From: Fretibacterium sp.
GTDB lineage: Bacteria > Synergistota > Synergistia > Synergistales > Aminobacteriaceae
NCBI GenBank assembly: GCA_024695065.1
Contig: JAILIX010000008.1
Span: 1 to 50,266, forward strand
Direction: 5' to 3'
DNA length: 50,266 bases
The position numbers and the translations under genes were made by a program. How positions within the stretch are numbered: position 1 is the first letter of the stretch; each line of letters begins with the position of its first letter. Shown here piece after piece: positions 11,021 to 15,915 of the stretch. The notes beneath the pieces are model-generated. The model had not been told where the DNA came from and did not search any database. It worked only from the letters and a program-made list of their open reading frames with translations.

Positions 11021-12421
11021 CTAATCCTCCTCTTTCCCGCGCCAGAAAACGCGGATAGGAGACCCCGTGAAGTCCGACAGGGCCCGGAGTTCGTTGCGGA
11101 CATGGTTCTCGAAGGCGGTGTTCACAATAGAGGGGTCGTTGACGAAGAAAACGAAAGTCGGCGGCTCCACCTCGACCTGGGAACAGTAATAAATGCGGAG
11201 CGCGCGTCCCTTCCGGTTGGAGGGGAGACGGTCAAAGGCCAGCACGTCCCGCATCAGGCGGTTGAGCGCATTGGTGGGGATCCGCCGGCGGCGTGCCTCG
11301 TGAACGGACATCACCGTGGAGGCGATCTTCTGCACGCCGCGTCCGCTGAGCGCCGAGGTGAACAGCACGGGCGCCCAGCTCAGAAAGGGCATATCGTCCC
11401 TTATCCGGCGGGTCAGGGTGTCGCCGGGCCGTTCCTGACCGGTCATGAGGTCCCACTTGTTGACGACGAGGACCAGGCCCTTGCCCTTCTCGATCACATG
11501 GGCGGCGATCTTTTTGTCCTGATCCGTGCAGGGGTCAGCCGCGTCCATCAGGAGCAGCGCCACGTCCGATCGGTCCACCGCGGACAGTGTGCGGACAAAG
11601 GAGTAGTACTCCAGATTGCGTCCTCCGGAGGCGGATTTCCCGCCAGACCACGCGGCGGGCTTTCTCCCGGCCCGGCGCAGCCCCGCCGTATCGATCAGGC
11701 GGAAGCGCTGCCCATCCAGTGTGACGGAAGTGTCAACGGGGTCGCGGGTTGTGCCCGCCACGGGGCTCACCAGCGAGCGTTCCGCGCCCGCCAGCCGGTT
11801 CAGCAGGGAGGATTTCCCGACATTGGGCCGGCCCACGATAGCCAGCCTCACGGTGTCCTCTTCCGTTTCTCCCGCAGGGGCCTGAGGCAGCAGGCGGACC
11901 AGGAGGTCCAGCAGGTCCTCAAGGTTGCGCCTGTGCAGCGCGCTGATGGGCACAACGTGCTCAAAACCCAGCATGTAAGCTTCCGCAGCGTTATCCTCAT
12001 GTTTGATGTCATCCAGTTTGTTGACGGCGACGATGACGGGCTTGCGTTCCCCGCCGGAAGAACCGGCCCGGCGCAGAAGCGTGGCCAGCTCCTCGTCAGG
12101 AGGGGTGACCCCGGCCTGTCCGTCCAGCACCATCAGAATCACGTCGCACTCGCGGATGGCCGCGTCGACGTGAGCCCGTATCCCCTCGCTGAAGGCCGTG
12201 TCCTCGCCAAGGATGCCTCCCGTGTCGATGACGTAGAAGGAACGATCCCTCCACTCCGCCGTACCGTAAAGCCGGTCGCGGGTGACGCCGGGGGTGTCGT
12301 CGACAATGGCCTCCCTCCGGCCGATCAGCCGGTTGAAGAGGGAGGACTTCCCCACATTGGGGCGGCCGACGATGGCGACAAGCCCGTAAGGAGTGGCCGC
12401 GCAGAGAGTATCCGCAGTCAT
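11021..12421 (-). CDS. der: Ribosome assembly GTPase Der (EngA)
   Basis: Double GTPase needed for maturation of the 50S ribosomal subunit. The 466 residues show two G domains in tandem, each with the G1 motif GRPNVGKSS (residues 19-27 and near 195), DTPGVTRDR and DTGG in the first, TTRDPVD and DTAGL in the second, and the base-specificity motifs NKLD and NKWD. The C-terminal ~110 residues are the KH-like domain. An insertion of about 15 basic, Gly/Ser-rich residues (RKPAAWSGGKSASGG) follows the second DTAGLRR and looks like a lineage-specific loop. The ATG at 12421 shares its A with the TGA of the upstream asparaginase-like gene (TGATG), so translation is probably coupled. Confidence 0.96.
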   Translation of the reverse strand: MTADTLCAATPYGLVAIVGRPNVGKSSLFNRLIGRREAIVDDTPGVTRDRLYGTAEWRDRSFYVIDTGGILGEDTAFSEGIRAHVDAAIRECDVILMVLDGQAGVTPPDEELATLLRRAGSSGGERKPVIVAVNKLDDIKHEDNAAEAYMLGFEHVVPISALHRRNLEDLLDLLVRLLPQAPAGETEEDTVRLAIVGRPNVGKSSLLNRLAGAERSLVSPVAGTTRDPVDTSVTLDGQRFRLIDTAGLRRAGRKPAAWSGGKSASGGRNLEYYSFVRTLSAVDRSDVALLLMDAADPCTDQDKKIAAHVIEKGKGLVLVVNKWDLMTGQERPGDTLTRRIRDDMPFLSWAPVLFTSALSGRGVQKIASTVMSVHEARRRRIPTNALNRLMRDVLAFDRLPSNRKGRALRIYYCSQVEVEPPTFVFFVNDPSIVNTAFENHVRNELRALSDFTGSPIRVFWRGKEED

Positions 12422-13413
12422 CACTGTTCGCCTTTCATGTAGCGGGCGAGGTCCTCACCCTTGAGCCCCGCCGAAAGTCCCACAGCCAGCCGCAGGCGTG
12501 CCTGATAGGGGGAGAGCATGCCGGCATCGAGCAGACCGAACTCCAAAAGCTGAGAGGCGCTGCCCTCAAAGTCCTCCGCGTCCTGGACGCGGCCGCCGGG
12601 GCGGGAGGCCAGCACAATGGGGATCTCCGTGCGGACGAGCTTGCGGATCAGGGGAACCCAGCCTGAGGGCACGTCCCCGTCCCCAAGGCCGGAGATAACC
12701 AGCCCATCCAGCTCCTCAAACCGCTTGTCCAGAAGGGCCTTCAGCATGAGGTCTCCATCTCCCAGGGAAGCGTTCAGGATCTCGATGTTCCTTGCCAGCG
12801 GGAAGCCCAGACTCAGGACCTGCCGGCGCCGGGGGCTGCGGAGGGGCAGCAGCTCTCCCGATGGCTGAGCGAAGACGGCCAGAGGCGCGTCCGGGAAGGC
12901 AAGGATGTTGCGGCGGAAGCTGCATATCTGAAGTACGTCTGCCGGGGAGTAAATGGCGTCCTGAATGCAGAGCAGCGCGCCCTTCCCCGTGCAGAAACCG
13001 GACATCACTGCCTGAACGGACTGCTCCAGCCGGATGGACGTCTCGCTGCCGCGGGAGCCGGCGTTGAAGAGGGAGCCCGTAAAGACCAGTGGGGGATTGA
13101 GATCCCAGATGAGGTCCGCAAAGTAGGCCAGTTCAGCAATGCCCTCAATCCCGCAGGTGACGATGACCCCTTTAGCCCCATCGTTATTGATGTAGGAGGC
13201 GGCCATGCTGATAATTTCGCTGCACATCCTCAGTGTGTAGTTGGAGACGGGCTGAAGGCTCCATTTTTGAAATGTCGTGTGCTCCCGAAATTGATCGGAA
13301 AGAAGGGCATTCAGTTCCTCCTCCTTCAGATCCGGCTGCACGGAGGGCATGGCCTGACGCTGGACAACTCTGCCCCCCGCCAGGAGTACCACGACTTTAT
13401 CTCTGTTCTCCAT
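12421..13413 (-). CDS. Asparaginase-fold protein lacking catalytic threonines
   Basis: 330 residues along the bacterial L-asparaginase (AnsA/AnsB) pattern: the first strand VVVLLAGGRVV, the second-triad region TCGIEGIAELAYF, GSLFNAGSRGSETSIRL, a GLGDGDVP turn, VLASRPGGRV and QARLRLAVGLSAG. In active enzymes the first nucleophile lies in GGT; here that position is Arg15. The second Thr-Asp pair (THGTD) is Ile89-Glu90. The catalytic Lys also seems lost, though that alignment is less certain. The fold is therefore probably kept for binding rather than hydrolysis. No frameshift is present and codon use matches the neighbours, so this is a maintained gene and not a fresh pseudogene. It overlaps der by one base. 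Confidence is high for the family and moderate for loss of activity. Confidence 0.8.
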   Translation of the reverse strand: MENRDKVVVLLAGGRVVQRQAMPSVQPDLKEEELNALLSDQFREHTTFQKWSLQPVSNYTLRMCSEIISMAASYINNDGAKGVIVTCGIEGIAELAYFADLIWDLNPPLVFTGSLFNAGSRGSETSIRLEQSVQAVMSGFCTGKGALLCIQDAIYSPADVLQICSFRRNILAFPDAPLAVFAQPSGELLPLRSPRRRQVLSLGFPLARNIEILNASLGDGDLMLKALLDKRFEELDGLVISGLGDGDVPSGWVPLIRKLVRTEIPIVLASRPGGRVQDAEDFEGSASQLLEFGLLDAGMLSPYQARLRLAVGLSAGLKGEDLARYMKGEQ

Positions 13414-13468: not shown

Positions 13469-14116
13469 TCAAAACCCCAGTTCTGTCCCCACGAGAATGA
13501 CGTGGGTCTCGCGCCCGTGGGTCGGTGCCTCCAGAATCAGCGTCGCCCGGCATATCCGCGAGTCGCTGCGGCAGTCGACACAGTGTCCGGCCTGTGTGCA
13601 GGGCAGAGTGCTCCCCAGCCGCAGGGCGTTGGGAATGGCGGCGGCCCGGGCACGGCGGAGCCCATCTTCGAGGTTCGGGGCCAGCTTGTTGAGGCCGATC
13701 ACAAAAATCAGGACGCCGCATCCCCAGGCCTGAGCGGCGACGCGGTTCCCGTCCCCGTCAATGCTGATGATCTGACCGTCCTGAGTGAGCGCGTTGGCAC
13801 TGGTGAGAAAGACGTCCGCAGCGTTTTCATCCATGCGGGCCTGCAGCCGCGCCTTCGGGGTGAGAGGCCCCCAGTGCTGATAGACCGTGCAGCCGCGGGA
13901 CTCCAGCGCCTCTATTGCGCCGATCTCACGCACCGTTACGCTTCCGGGGATGCCCACGGTGGCTCCGTTGGGTATTTTCTCCAGAACAAGTTCCAGCGCT
14001 TTTTCCTTCGACCCGGCGTACACGGCGTCGAATCCCCGGCCCTTCAGTGCCTTTACCACGGCGTTCCCCACGGCCTCACCGGCACTTCGGCGCGCAGCTT
14101 CAAATATCTCAGACAT
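13469..14116 (-). CDS. LUD-domain (DUF162/LutC-like) protein
   Basis: 215 residues with the LUD fold seen in LutC/YkgG and related proteins: VGIPGSVTVREIG (residues ~53-65), ADVFLTSANALTQDG and IDGDGNRVAAQAWG in the centre, then IGLNKLAPNLEDGL. The C-terminus adds four cysteines at 173, 179, 182 and 189 (CX5CX2CX6C), suggesting a metal or Fe-S site. LutC-type proteins belong to lactate utilisation, but lutA and lutB are absent here, so that role is not supported. Start ATG with GAGAGG upstream. It lies between the TPR gene (41 bases before) and the asparaginase-like gene (55 bases after) on the same strand, probably in one transcript. Confidence 0.82.
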   Translation of the reverse strand: MSEIFEAARRSAGEAVGNAVVKALKGRGFDAVYAGSKEKALELVLEKIPNGATVGIPGSVTVREIGAIEALESRGCTVYQHWGPLTPKARLQARMDENAADVFLTSANALTQDGQIISIDGDGNRVAAQAWGCGVLIFVIGLNKLAPNLEDGLRRARAAAIPNALRLGSTLPCTQAGHCVDCRSDSRICRATLILEAPTHGRETHVILVGTELGF

Positions 14117-14157: not shown

Positions 14158-15915
14158 TTACCGGATTCTCCGCTGCAGATCCCTGAGCTTGACCTCGATG
14201 GTCGGGTTCCGGGGAAGCGTGTTGCGGGCATCAACCAGCACACGGAAAGCCTCGCCCACCGCTCCCTTCCCCTCGAAAGCCGCCACAATCCCCAGCCACG
14301 CACGGGGGTCGTCTTTCCGGCGTTCCAGGGCCTGAGAGAAGGTCTCCATAGCCTCATCGTAGCGCCCGTTGTTCAGAGCCGCTGTTCCCAGACGGACCTG
14401 TCCCTCATAGGAAAGGGGCAGAACAGGCTCCGCCGGACCGGACTTCCGGGAGGAGGGCGCCGGCTTCTCTGTTGGAGTTGCCGCCGGTTTCTCCGCAGTC
14501 TCTGGCTTTTCTGCAGGCTGCGCCGGTTTTTCCGCCGGCTTCTCTGTTGGAGTTGCCGCCGGTTTCTCCGCAGTCTCCGGCCTTTCTGCAGGCTGTGTCG
14601 GTTTTTCCGCCGGCTTCTCTGTTGGAGTTACGGCTGGCTTCTCCGCCGTCTCCGGCTTTTCTGCGGGCTGCGCCGGTTTTTCCAGCGGCTTCTCTGTTGG
14701 AGTTACGGCTGGCTTCTCCGTCGTCTCCGGCTTTTCCGTCGGGGCGGACCTTTCCTTGGGCTGCACGGAGCCCGTCGCCGGCACGGTCTCCTTTGTTTGG
14801 GACGCGGGGGTTTCCGTCGCCGGCGGTGCGGGCGGTTTTTCCGCGGTCACGGAGGCAGCGGCAGGGCGGATGGAGGAGCCGTCCTCAGTCCGTACGTCCG
14901 TTTGGGTCTCCGGCAGAACAGAACGGTTCAAATCCCCCCTGCCCGTGAGTTGGCCGATGTTGACCTGAAGGTAATGAAGCACGGTCCAGGCCCCCCCAAG
15001 GGTGAATAGGAGGATAGCGCTGAACGCAAGGGTGTGCAGCCAATAGCGGAGGGTGGGTGCCGGTTTCCTGGGCTGATGGGCTGACGTGAAGCCCTTCTTT
15101 TGTTCCTGAAGTCCCTTATGCAGTTTTCGGGTGAAGTCTTTGTTGTATCTGCCCTCACTCTCCTCCTGTTCCTCCTGCTCATCATCAAGCAGCCCCTCAA
15201 GCGACCAGCCGTCCGGCATGGAGATGGGACGCGTCTTCAGAGAAGGCATGGGGCGCGGTTCCTGAAAAGGAGTCAGCCGTGGGCGGACAGATTCAGCCGG
15301 AGTGGAAACAGGGACCGGCCGGGCTTCAGAAAATGTTTTGGATACAGACGCGGGGTCCGGCTCCGGCACCGGCTGGGGAGCGGCCTGTGGAGCAGAGACT
15401 GTTTCCGCCTGCAGAGCTTCAGACGGGGTCCTGGGTGCAGACGCGGGGTCCGGCTCCGGCACCGGCTGAAGGGCGGCCTGCGGGTCAGAAACTGTTTCCG
15501 TCTGCAGAACTTCAGACGGTGTCCTGGGCGCAGAGACGGGTTCCGGTTCCGGCTGAAGGGCGGCCTGCGGCTCAGAGGCTGTTTCTGCCTGCAGAGCTTC
15601 AGAAGGTGTTCTGGGCGCAGAGGCGGGTTCCGGTTCCGGCTGGGGGGTGGCCTGCGGCGCAGAGGCTGTTTCCGCCGGCTGTTCAGGCTCAGGCGCGGGC
15701 TGGGGTTTCGGTTCCGGCTGTGGGGTGTTTTTCTCAGGGGGCTCTTTTTTCAGGACTTCCTTTTTGGGGGCTTTCCGGGCCTCGGGCTCCACGACGAGCA
15801 ACTGTGTCTCCATCGCGCCTGAGCGCTCTGAAGACGCACCAAGAGGGGCCAGAAGCAATCCTGTCCCCTTTGAGTCCGATCCTCCATTCAGCCAGTCCGC
15901 CAAATCCTGCCTCAC
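14158..15915 (-). CDS. Bitopic proline-rich TPR protein with two repeat tracts
   Basis: 585 residues in four parts: (a) an N-terminal, probably cytoplasmic region to ~290 rich in Pro, Glu and Ala, with three to four copies of a 29-31-residue unit (SAPRTPSEALQAET) at about 75-188; (b) one membrane segment near 291-316 (LAFSAILLFTLGGAWTVL); (c) a Lys/Pro/Glu rod (about 385-485) of four 25-residue units (ETAEKPAATPTEKP), reminiscent of the extended EKP region of TonB; (d) a C-terminal TPR pair (about 500-585, AALNNGRYDEAMETFSQALE). The likely layout places the rod and TPR in the periplasm. No TonB C-terminal domain is present. The GTG start has only a modest GGTGAG site upstream. Function unknown. 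Confidence 0.78.
   Translation of the reverse strand: MRQDLADWLNGGSDSKGTGLLLAPLGASSERSGAMETQLLVVEPEARKAPKKEVLKKEPPEKNTPQPEPKPQPAPEPEQPAETASAPQATPQPEPEPASAPRTPSEALQAETASEPQAALQPEPEPVSAPRTPSEVLQTETVSDPQAALQPVPEPDPASAPRTPSEALQAETVSAPQAAPQPVPEPDPASVSKTFSEARPVPVSTPAESVRPRLTPFQEPRPMPSLKTRPISMPDGWSLEGLLDDEQEEQEESEGRYNKDFTRKLHKGLQEQKKGFTSAHQPRKPAPTLRYWLHTLAFSAILLFTLGGAWTVLHYLQVNIGQLTGRGDLNRSVLPETQTDVRTEDGSSIRPAAASVTAEKPPAPPATETPASQTKETVPATGSVQPKERSAPTEKPETTEKPAVTPTEKPLEKPAQPAEKPETAEKPAVTPTEKPAEKPTQPAERPETAEKPAATPTEKPAEKPAQPAEKPETAEKPAATPTEKPAPSSRKSGPAEPVLPLSYEGQVRLGTAALNNGRYDEAMETFSQALERRKDDPRAWLGIVAAFEGKGAVGEAFRVLVDARNTLPRNPTIEVKLRDLQRRIR
14462..14761. repeat. Four 75-bp tandem repeats coding for an EKP rod
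   Basis: Near-identical 75-base units begin at 14462, 14537, 14612 and 14687 (each opening GGCTTCTCTGTTGGAGTT on the plus strand), inside the TPR gene. 75 is a multiple of three, so copy-number change keeps the frame. The fifth copy has degenerated. Such tracts commonly vary in length between strains by slippage. Confidence 0.9.
15350..15690. repeat. Imperfect ~90-bp tandem repeats coding for Pro/Glu/Ala units
   Basis: Three to four imperfect units of 87-93 bases in the 5' half of the TPR gene, each encoding a segment like PRTPSEALQAETVS followed by PQPEPEP. Units differ by two codons in length (EPEP against VPEPDP), which indicates in-frame unequal exchange. Boundaries are approximate. Confidence 0.8.

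Follow-up and report, generated by a model that had tools for sequence, protein, structure and literature searches.

Thr12, Tyr25, Thr89, Asp90 and Lys162 are crucial residues in class 1 L-asparaginases (PMC8256714). The enzymes of Bacillus licheniformis (7c8q, 7cb4, 8h44-8h4g) and Streptococcus pneumoniae (9d91) share their whole fold and two-domain layout with the protein described here, and the PSxH-type loop of native asparaginases aligns with its QPSSHY stretch. They differ from it in sequence, with 22–23% identity in the structure alignment, and in that their catalytic and substrate residues (Thr12, Ser58, Thr89, Asp90 and Lys162, hereafter T/S/T/D/K) are all replaced in our protein. Two EcAII mutants, T12V (6pa9) and T89V/K162T (6pa3), are laboratory versions of these losses. 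Because both, like Bacillus T13A, were crystallised with Asn or Asp according to their entry titles, binding can outlive catalysis. The EcAII mutants carry engineered single or double changes, whereas here at least four catalytic positions and S58 have been replaced by evolution. GatD, subunit D of the archaeal Glu-tRNA(Gln) amidotransferase, also contains an asparaginase-like domain, but its NCBIfam model matches our protein weakly, at 38.5 bits where the cut-off is 310, and the catalytic set is absent from our protein. The canonical AnsA of the same genome (locus L001, contig C16) has the same Pfam domains; it differs in keeping T/S/T/D/K intact, in lying on another contig and in being missing from the majority of genus g11 genomes.

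Pseudoenzymes have mostly been studied as single cases. Our searches of the open-access literature, where absence is weak evidence, returned no description of an asparaginase pseudoenzyme and nothing relevant on asparaginase in connection with Synergistetes. Conserved pseudoenzymes built on known enzyme folds are themselves a familiar kind of object; what is undescribed, as far as these searches show, is this lineage, its breadth and the repeated loss of catalysis within it.

Fold and catalytic residues of the window protein

The window, the whole stretch of 50,266 nucleotides from Fretibacterium sp. that was analysed, contains the gene in question and its two catalytic motifs at the following positions.

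12421..13413, minus strand: pseudo-asparaginase gene (asn), 330 aa, class 1 asparaginase fold, with R15, V56, I89, E90 and Q162
13369..13380, minus strand: codons of A12-G13-G14-R15, the first threonine motif, GGT changed to GGR
13144..13149, minus strand: codons of I89-E90, the second motif, GTD changed to GIE

The frame opens with ATG and runs for 330 codons uninterrupted by stops. Its product matches both PF00710 (53.5 bits, cut-off 22.5) and PF17763 (59.6 bits, cut-off 34.6), the pair of domains that defines the two-domain fold of class 1 (type I/II) L-asparaginases. By comparison, the NCBIfam asparaginase and GatD models all scored below their curated cut-offs, the best reaching 63.5 against 314.3 bits. 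An AlphaFold (AF2) monomer model built from 15 family sequences had a pLDDT of 82.6 and a pTM of 0.84, and when it was searched against the PDB with Foldseek the best match was B. licheniformis asparaginase (E 1.4e-24, TM 0.83/0.86), with the E. coli, H. pylori and S. pneumoniae asparaginases ranking after it. The intact asparaginase-fold frame of 330 residues reported in the earlier note is thus upheld by the reading frame, both Pfam domains, the model and the structural matches.

Residues were registered by profile alignment to solved asparaginases together with the family alignment. Relative to EcAII, four of the five catalytic residues are replaced (T12 by R15, T89 by I89, D90 by E90 and K162 by Q162), the local motifs being AGGR at R15 and CGIE at I89/E90; Q162 was assigned from the lysine column that directly precedes window residue 163 in the family alignment. 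The lid carrying the Tyr25 site is too divergent for alignment, and residues 16–30 of the window protein contain no tyrosine. The changes from GGT to GGR at 15 and from GTD to GIE at 89-90, already noticed in the earlier note from the sequence, were confirmed by alignment to solved structures, which added two more, K162 to Q162 and, at the substrate serine, S58 to V56. Lacking Thr12, Thr89, Asp90 and Lys162, the protein departs in sequence from the class 1 enzymes, and judging by these residues it very probably has no classical Thr-nucleophile asparaginase activity. As a control, the same alignment procedure was applied to 20 distinct canonical asparaginases, 19 of them Synergistota paralogues and one from S. 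pneumoniae; T/S/T/D/K were intact in all 20.

Distribution, loss of catalytic residues and retention

Protein searches found orthologues in 77 of the 83 genomes of the window's family (f1), representing all 20 of its genera. Across Synergistota, a profile search matched 157 of 188 genomes, a figure whose weakest matches may take in a few distant paralogues; the core orthologues stand out clearly by their scores and by a common WSxQP..xY..RM motif. The closest named relatives are MAGs labelled Fretibacterium, one from deer rumen, with 81–88% identity in this protein.

Thr12 is absent from every f1 orthologue, its place being taken by R, Q or E. Of the three replacements singled out in the earlier note, R15 is fixed in 35/35 sequences of the near clade (genera g1 and g11), but I89 and E90 are not: among the same sequences position 89 varies between I, L and V, and at position 90 Q or P prevails, with E and S also occurring. 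Sampled members of families f2, f3, f9 and f10 retain T/S/T/D/K, with the exception of L111, which has glycine at the serine site. Elsewhere the Thr12 site is occupied by S (f5), E (f6) or P or A (f4), and in f8 the lid region is missing from most members. On a tree built without the catalytic columns, the Thr12 state requires at least four changes by parsimony, and a tree forcing all Thr12-losers into one clade was rejected (p-AU 0.0048). The loss count is nonetheless approximate, because the constrained group was defined after inspection of the alignment and the deep branches are poorly resolved.

These distributions suggest the following history. The window gene would belong to an orthologous family that spans Synergistota and descends from a Bacillus-asparaginase-like L-asparaginase of class 1; the ancestral family probably had the full catalytic set that some families still carry. 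Catalysis would have been dispensable and lost several times, through change of T12 to S, E, Q/R or P, or through deletion of the lid loop. In the window's clade the loss appears stepwise, with T12 and K162 going first, S58 and D90 second, in the clade that acquired a linkage to der, and T89 last, when R15 became fixed.

The gene has nevertheless been kept. Reading frames are intact in nearly all orthologues, and pairwise dN/dS of the asparaginase-fold gene is 0.05–0.14, compared with 0.035–0.14 for der and 0.045–0.19 for the adjacent LUD gene on the same genome pairs; the g1 values (0.10–0.14) are the safer ones, since g11 pairs are near synonymous saturation. In g11 the gene is present in 41 of 43 genomes, and in 38 of those 41 the pseudo form is the only asparaginase-fold kind, indicating that it was retained through loss of the canonical asparaginase. 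With purifying selection acting on a gene whose catalytic residues are gone across orthologues, the protein is a conserved pseudoenzyme. The claim that it is maintained rather than decaying therefore stands: Thr12 is missing family-wide, the near clade has R15 throughout, dN/dS values are low, and most of g11 has lost the canonical paralogue while keeping this gene. A role as regulatory subunit of canonical AnsA is unlikely, as AnsA is missing from most g11 genomes. In one single-contig genome (G015 of genus g8, L058 5004-6999) the asparaginase-fold gene and der are both split by frame changes, and since the adjoining der frame is also broken, sequencing errors (indels) are the probable source.

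Gene neighbourhood

The window gene is flanked by the following genes.

11021..12421, minus strand: der (EngA) GTPase gene, whose ATG overlaps the asn stop by one base
13469..14116, minus strand: LUD-domain (DUF162) gene, 215 aa, upstream of asn and its most widely kept neighbour
14158..15915, minus strand: TPR-repeat protein gene, heading an apparent TPR-LUD-asn-der unit and recurring in the der-linked clade (cluster 6)

The asn stop (12421-12423) and the der ATG (12421-12419) have one base in common in a TGATG junction, and an alternative GTG start for der lies at 12424-12422. This shared base, already described in the earlier note, recurs in all four genomes of the window's genus. Within f1, der lies directly downstream of the asparaginase-fold gene in 14 of 20 genera, and in 36 of the 45 linked loci measured the two genes are spaced by −4 to +4 bases. 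Beyond f1 it was found beside the gene in none of 40 sampled loci, and in three unlinked genomes der sits beside a presumed priA in what we take, from reading of the sequence rather than family searches, to be the order gmk-coaBC-priA-der. The linkage is thus real in one clade, and the general linkage contemplated in the earlier note is rejected on these samples. S58 and D90 were lost, on the tree, in the very clade that gained der; as this is a single event, we make no causal claim. One genome (G027) carries two LUD-asn-der copies, L071 (on contig C58) and L072 (on contig C56), whose asparaginase-fold proteins share 64–65% identity with that of the window; the bin may be mixed.

The LUD protein is an older and more general neighbour than Der. 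Its gene lies immediately upstream in nearly all f1 loci and in sampled f2, f6, f7 and basal f8 genomes, and about 3–8 kb away in sampled f3, f4, f9 and f10 genomes. LUD proteins are tied to lactate metabolism and resemble the ISOCOT superfamily (PMC3924224). No NCBIfam model matched this one at E 1e-5. Its C-terminal cysteines C173, C179, C182 and C189 are conserved in most or all aligned Synergistota families, a pattern that possibly marks a metal or Fe-S site. The 14158-15915 product is long and proline-rich, with repeats and a C-terminal TPR region.

Other neighbours vary from family to family. Opposite the LUD-asn pair there is mostly, in unlinked f1 genera as well as f2, f6 and f7, a cluster that we presume, from its sequence, to be ylxM-ffh-rpsP-khpA-rimM-trmD. 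In crown f8 the lid loop is deleted and the asparaginase-fold gene runs up to 4 bases into the start of rimO, encoding the S12 methylthiotransferase (for example L126 3267-5551 and L129 3944-6234, and further f8 loci), and in f9 and f10 it adjoins trkA and trkH. A gene for a YbaK-like aminoacyl-tRNA editing domain occurs near the asparaginase-fold gene in many families (L107 6532-7044, L046 6663-7175 and others). Because the neighbours differ between families, no partner is consistently indicated.

The altered pocket and candidate functions

Since evolution has kept the protein despite its replaced catalytic residues, another job seems to be involved. We favour, tentatively, a conserved non-hydrolytic asparaginase-fold protein that would probably serve as a ligand-binding regulator or scaffold. 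A second, non-hydrolytic role would predate the losses and be what selection keeps; this is preferred because catalysis was lost repeatedly and with differing replacements, and because strong constraint persists over the rest of the protein. Most likely the altered inter-subunit pocket would bind a small carboxylate or amino-acid-like ligand and relay its ligand state to a partner, as a cytosolic sensor or scaffold, probably co-expressed in the window genome with the LUD-domain protein and Der. Against this reading, S58 and D90, both substrate binders, are lost here, and gene neighbours vary between families.

The pocket itself was compared with random sets of positions. Conservation of the ten first-shell positions is far above background in the catalytic clade, only 7 of 10000 random sets being as low. 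The pseudo clades show no significant excess (1948/10000 and 2544/10000), which also weighs against the favoured reading, and in the near clade a wider set of 19 pocket columns is mildly conserved (193/10000). A first test gave 24/5000, but a stricter one that excluded Gly and Pro and used first-shell positions only gave 1948/10000, and strong pocket conservation was rejected as proof of ligand binding. Invariant across the 35 near-clade sequences are R15, Q54, P55, S57, Y59, S114, D245, D247 and E283, part of 87 invariant positions spread over the whole protein that include W51, M63, W103, W252 and R271. D247 is present in 49/49 sequences of the der-linked clade, and R162 in 31/35 of the near clade. 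The pattern reads as relaxed catalytic constraint with some re-specialisation, and is weak evidence for a retained ligand.

With the first shell at background conservation, a purely structural role is possible. An oligomer working through its surface only, for instance by holding the LUD protein or Der, with the pocket as a relic, is in our judgement rather unlikely, though it accommodates the drift at the catalytic sites (I/L/V at 89, Q/P/E/S at 90), the protein-wide spread of invariant positions and the operon with LUD and der. It fits less well with the fixation in the near clade of pocket or rim residues (R15, Q54, P55, S57, Y59, S114, D247 and E283), or with partner genes that change between families.

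Those fixed residues could instead belong to a new active site. A pocket built on R15, D247 and E283 with a chemistry of its own, whose product the LUD protein perhaps supplies or uses, would explain why the replacements at R15, D247 and position 162 are fixed by lineage rather than random, and the lactate and ISOCOT connections of LUD proteins would suit it. It is unlikely, given that T12 was replaced differently in each pseudo lineage and that no nucleophile or base set is common to them.

A further alternative, along the lines of the earlier note, is a ribosome-assembly factor or Der regulator that would detect an amino acid or an aminoacyl compound and adjust Der at the 50S subunit accordingly. 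The near-zero der spacing, the 4-base rimO overlap in f8 and the adjoining ffh/rpsP cluster in other families are in keeping with it. We consider it improbable: the gene is conserved away from der in six f1 genera and in all other sampled families, der is located elsewhere in the unlinked genomes examined, and f9 and f10 offer a different class of neighbour in trkA/trkH. Resting on one clade-specific der operon and a separate rimO coupling in another family, a ribosome-assembly role is weakly supported.

That a single genome holds a decaying or mis-assembled asparaginase gene would account for the absent catalytic residues, and is refuted to near certainty by frames intact in nearly all orthologues, a dN/dS close to that of der and identical residues fixed clade-wide.

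For annotation, the conserved pseudoenzyme carries a warning: in much of Synergistota the asparaginase label probably sits on genes without that activity, and in one rumen genus the majority of genomes seem to contain no canonical class 1 asparaginase. One orthologous family in one phylum here comprises intact, partly disabled and fully disabled forms with changing operon partners; this combination, with its repeated losses, makes the order of events testable. A bolder version of the favoured reading, which we regard as fairly unlikely, is that the family once had a hidden second role, kept while enzyme activity was lost independently in at least three lineages, and that a new form of control responding to amino acids is tied either to the LUD protein or to the translation genes der, rimO and ffh/rpsP. 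If that were true, the family would be a natural experiment in repeated enzyme-to-sensor conversion.
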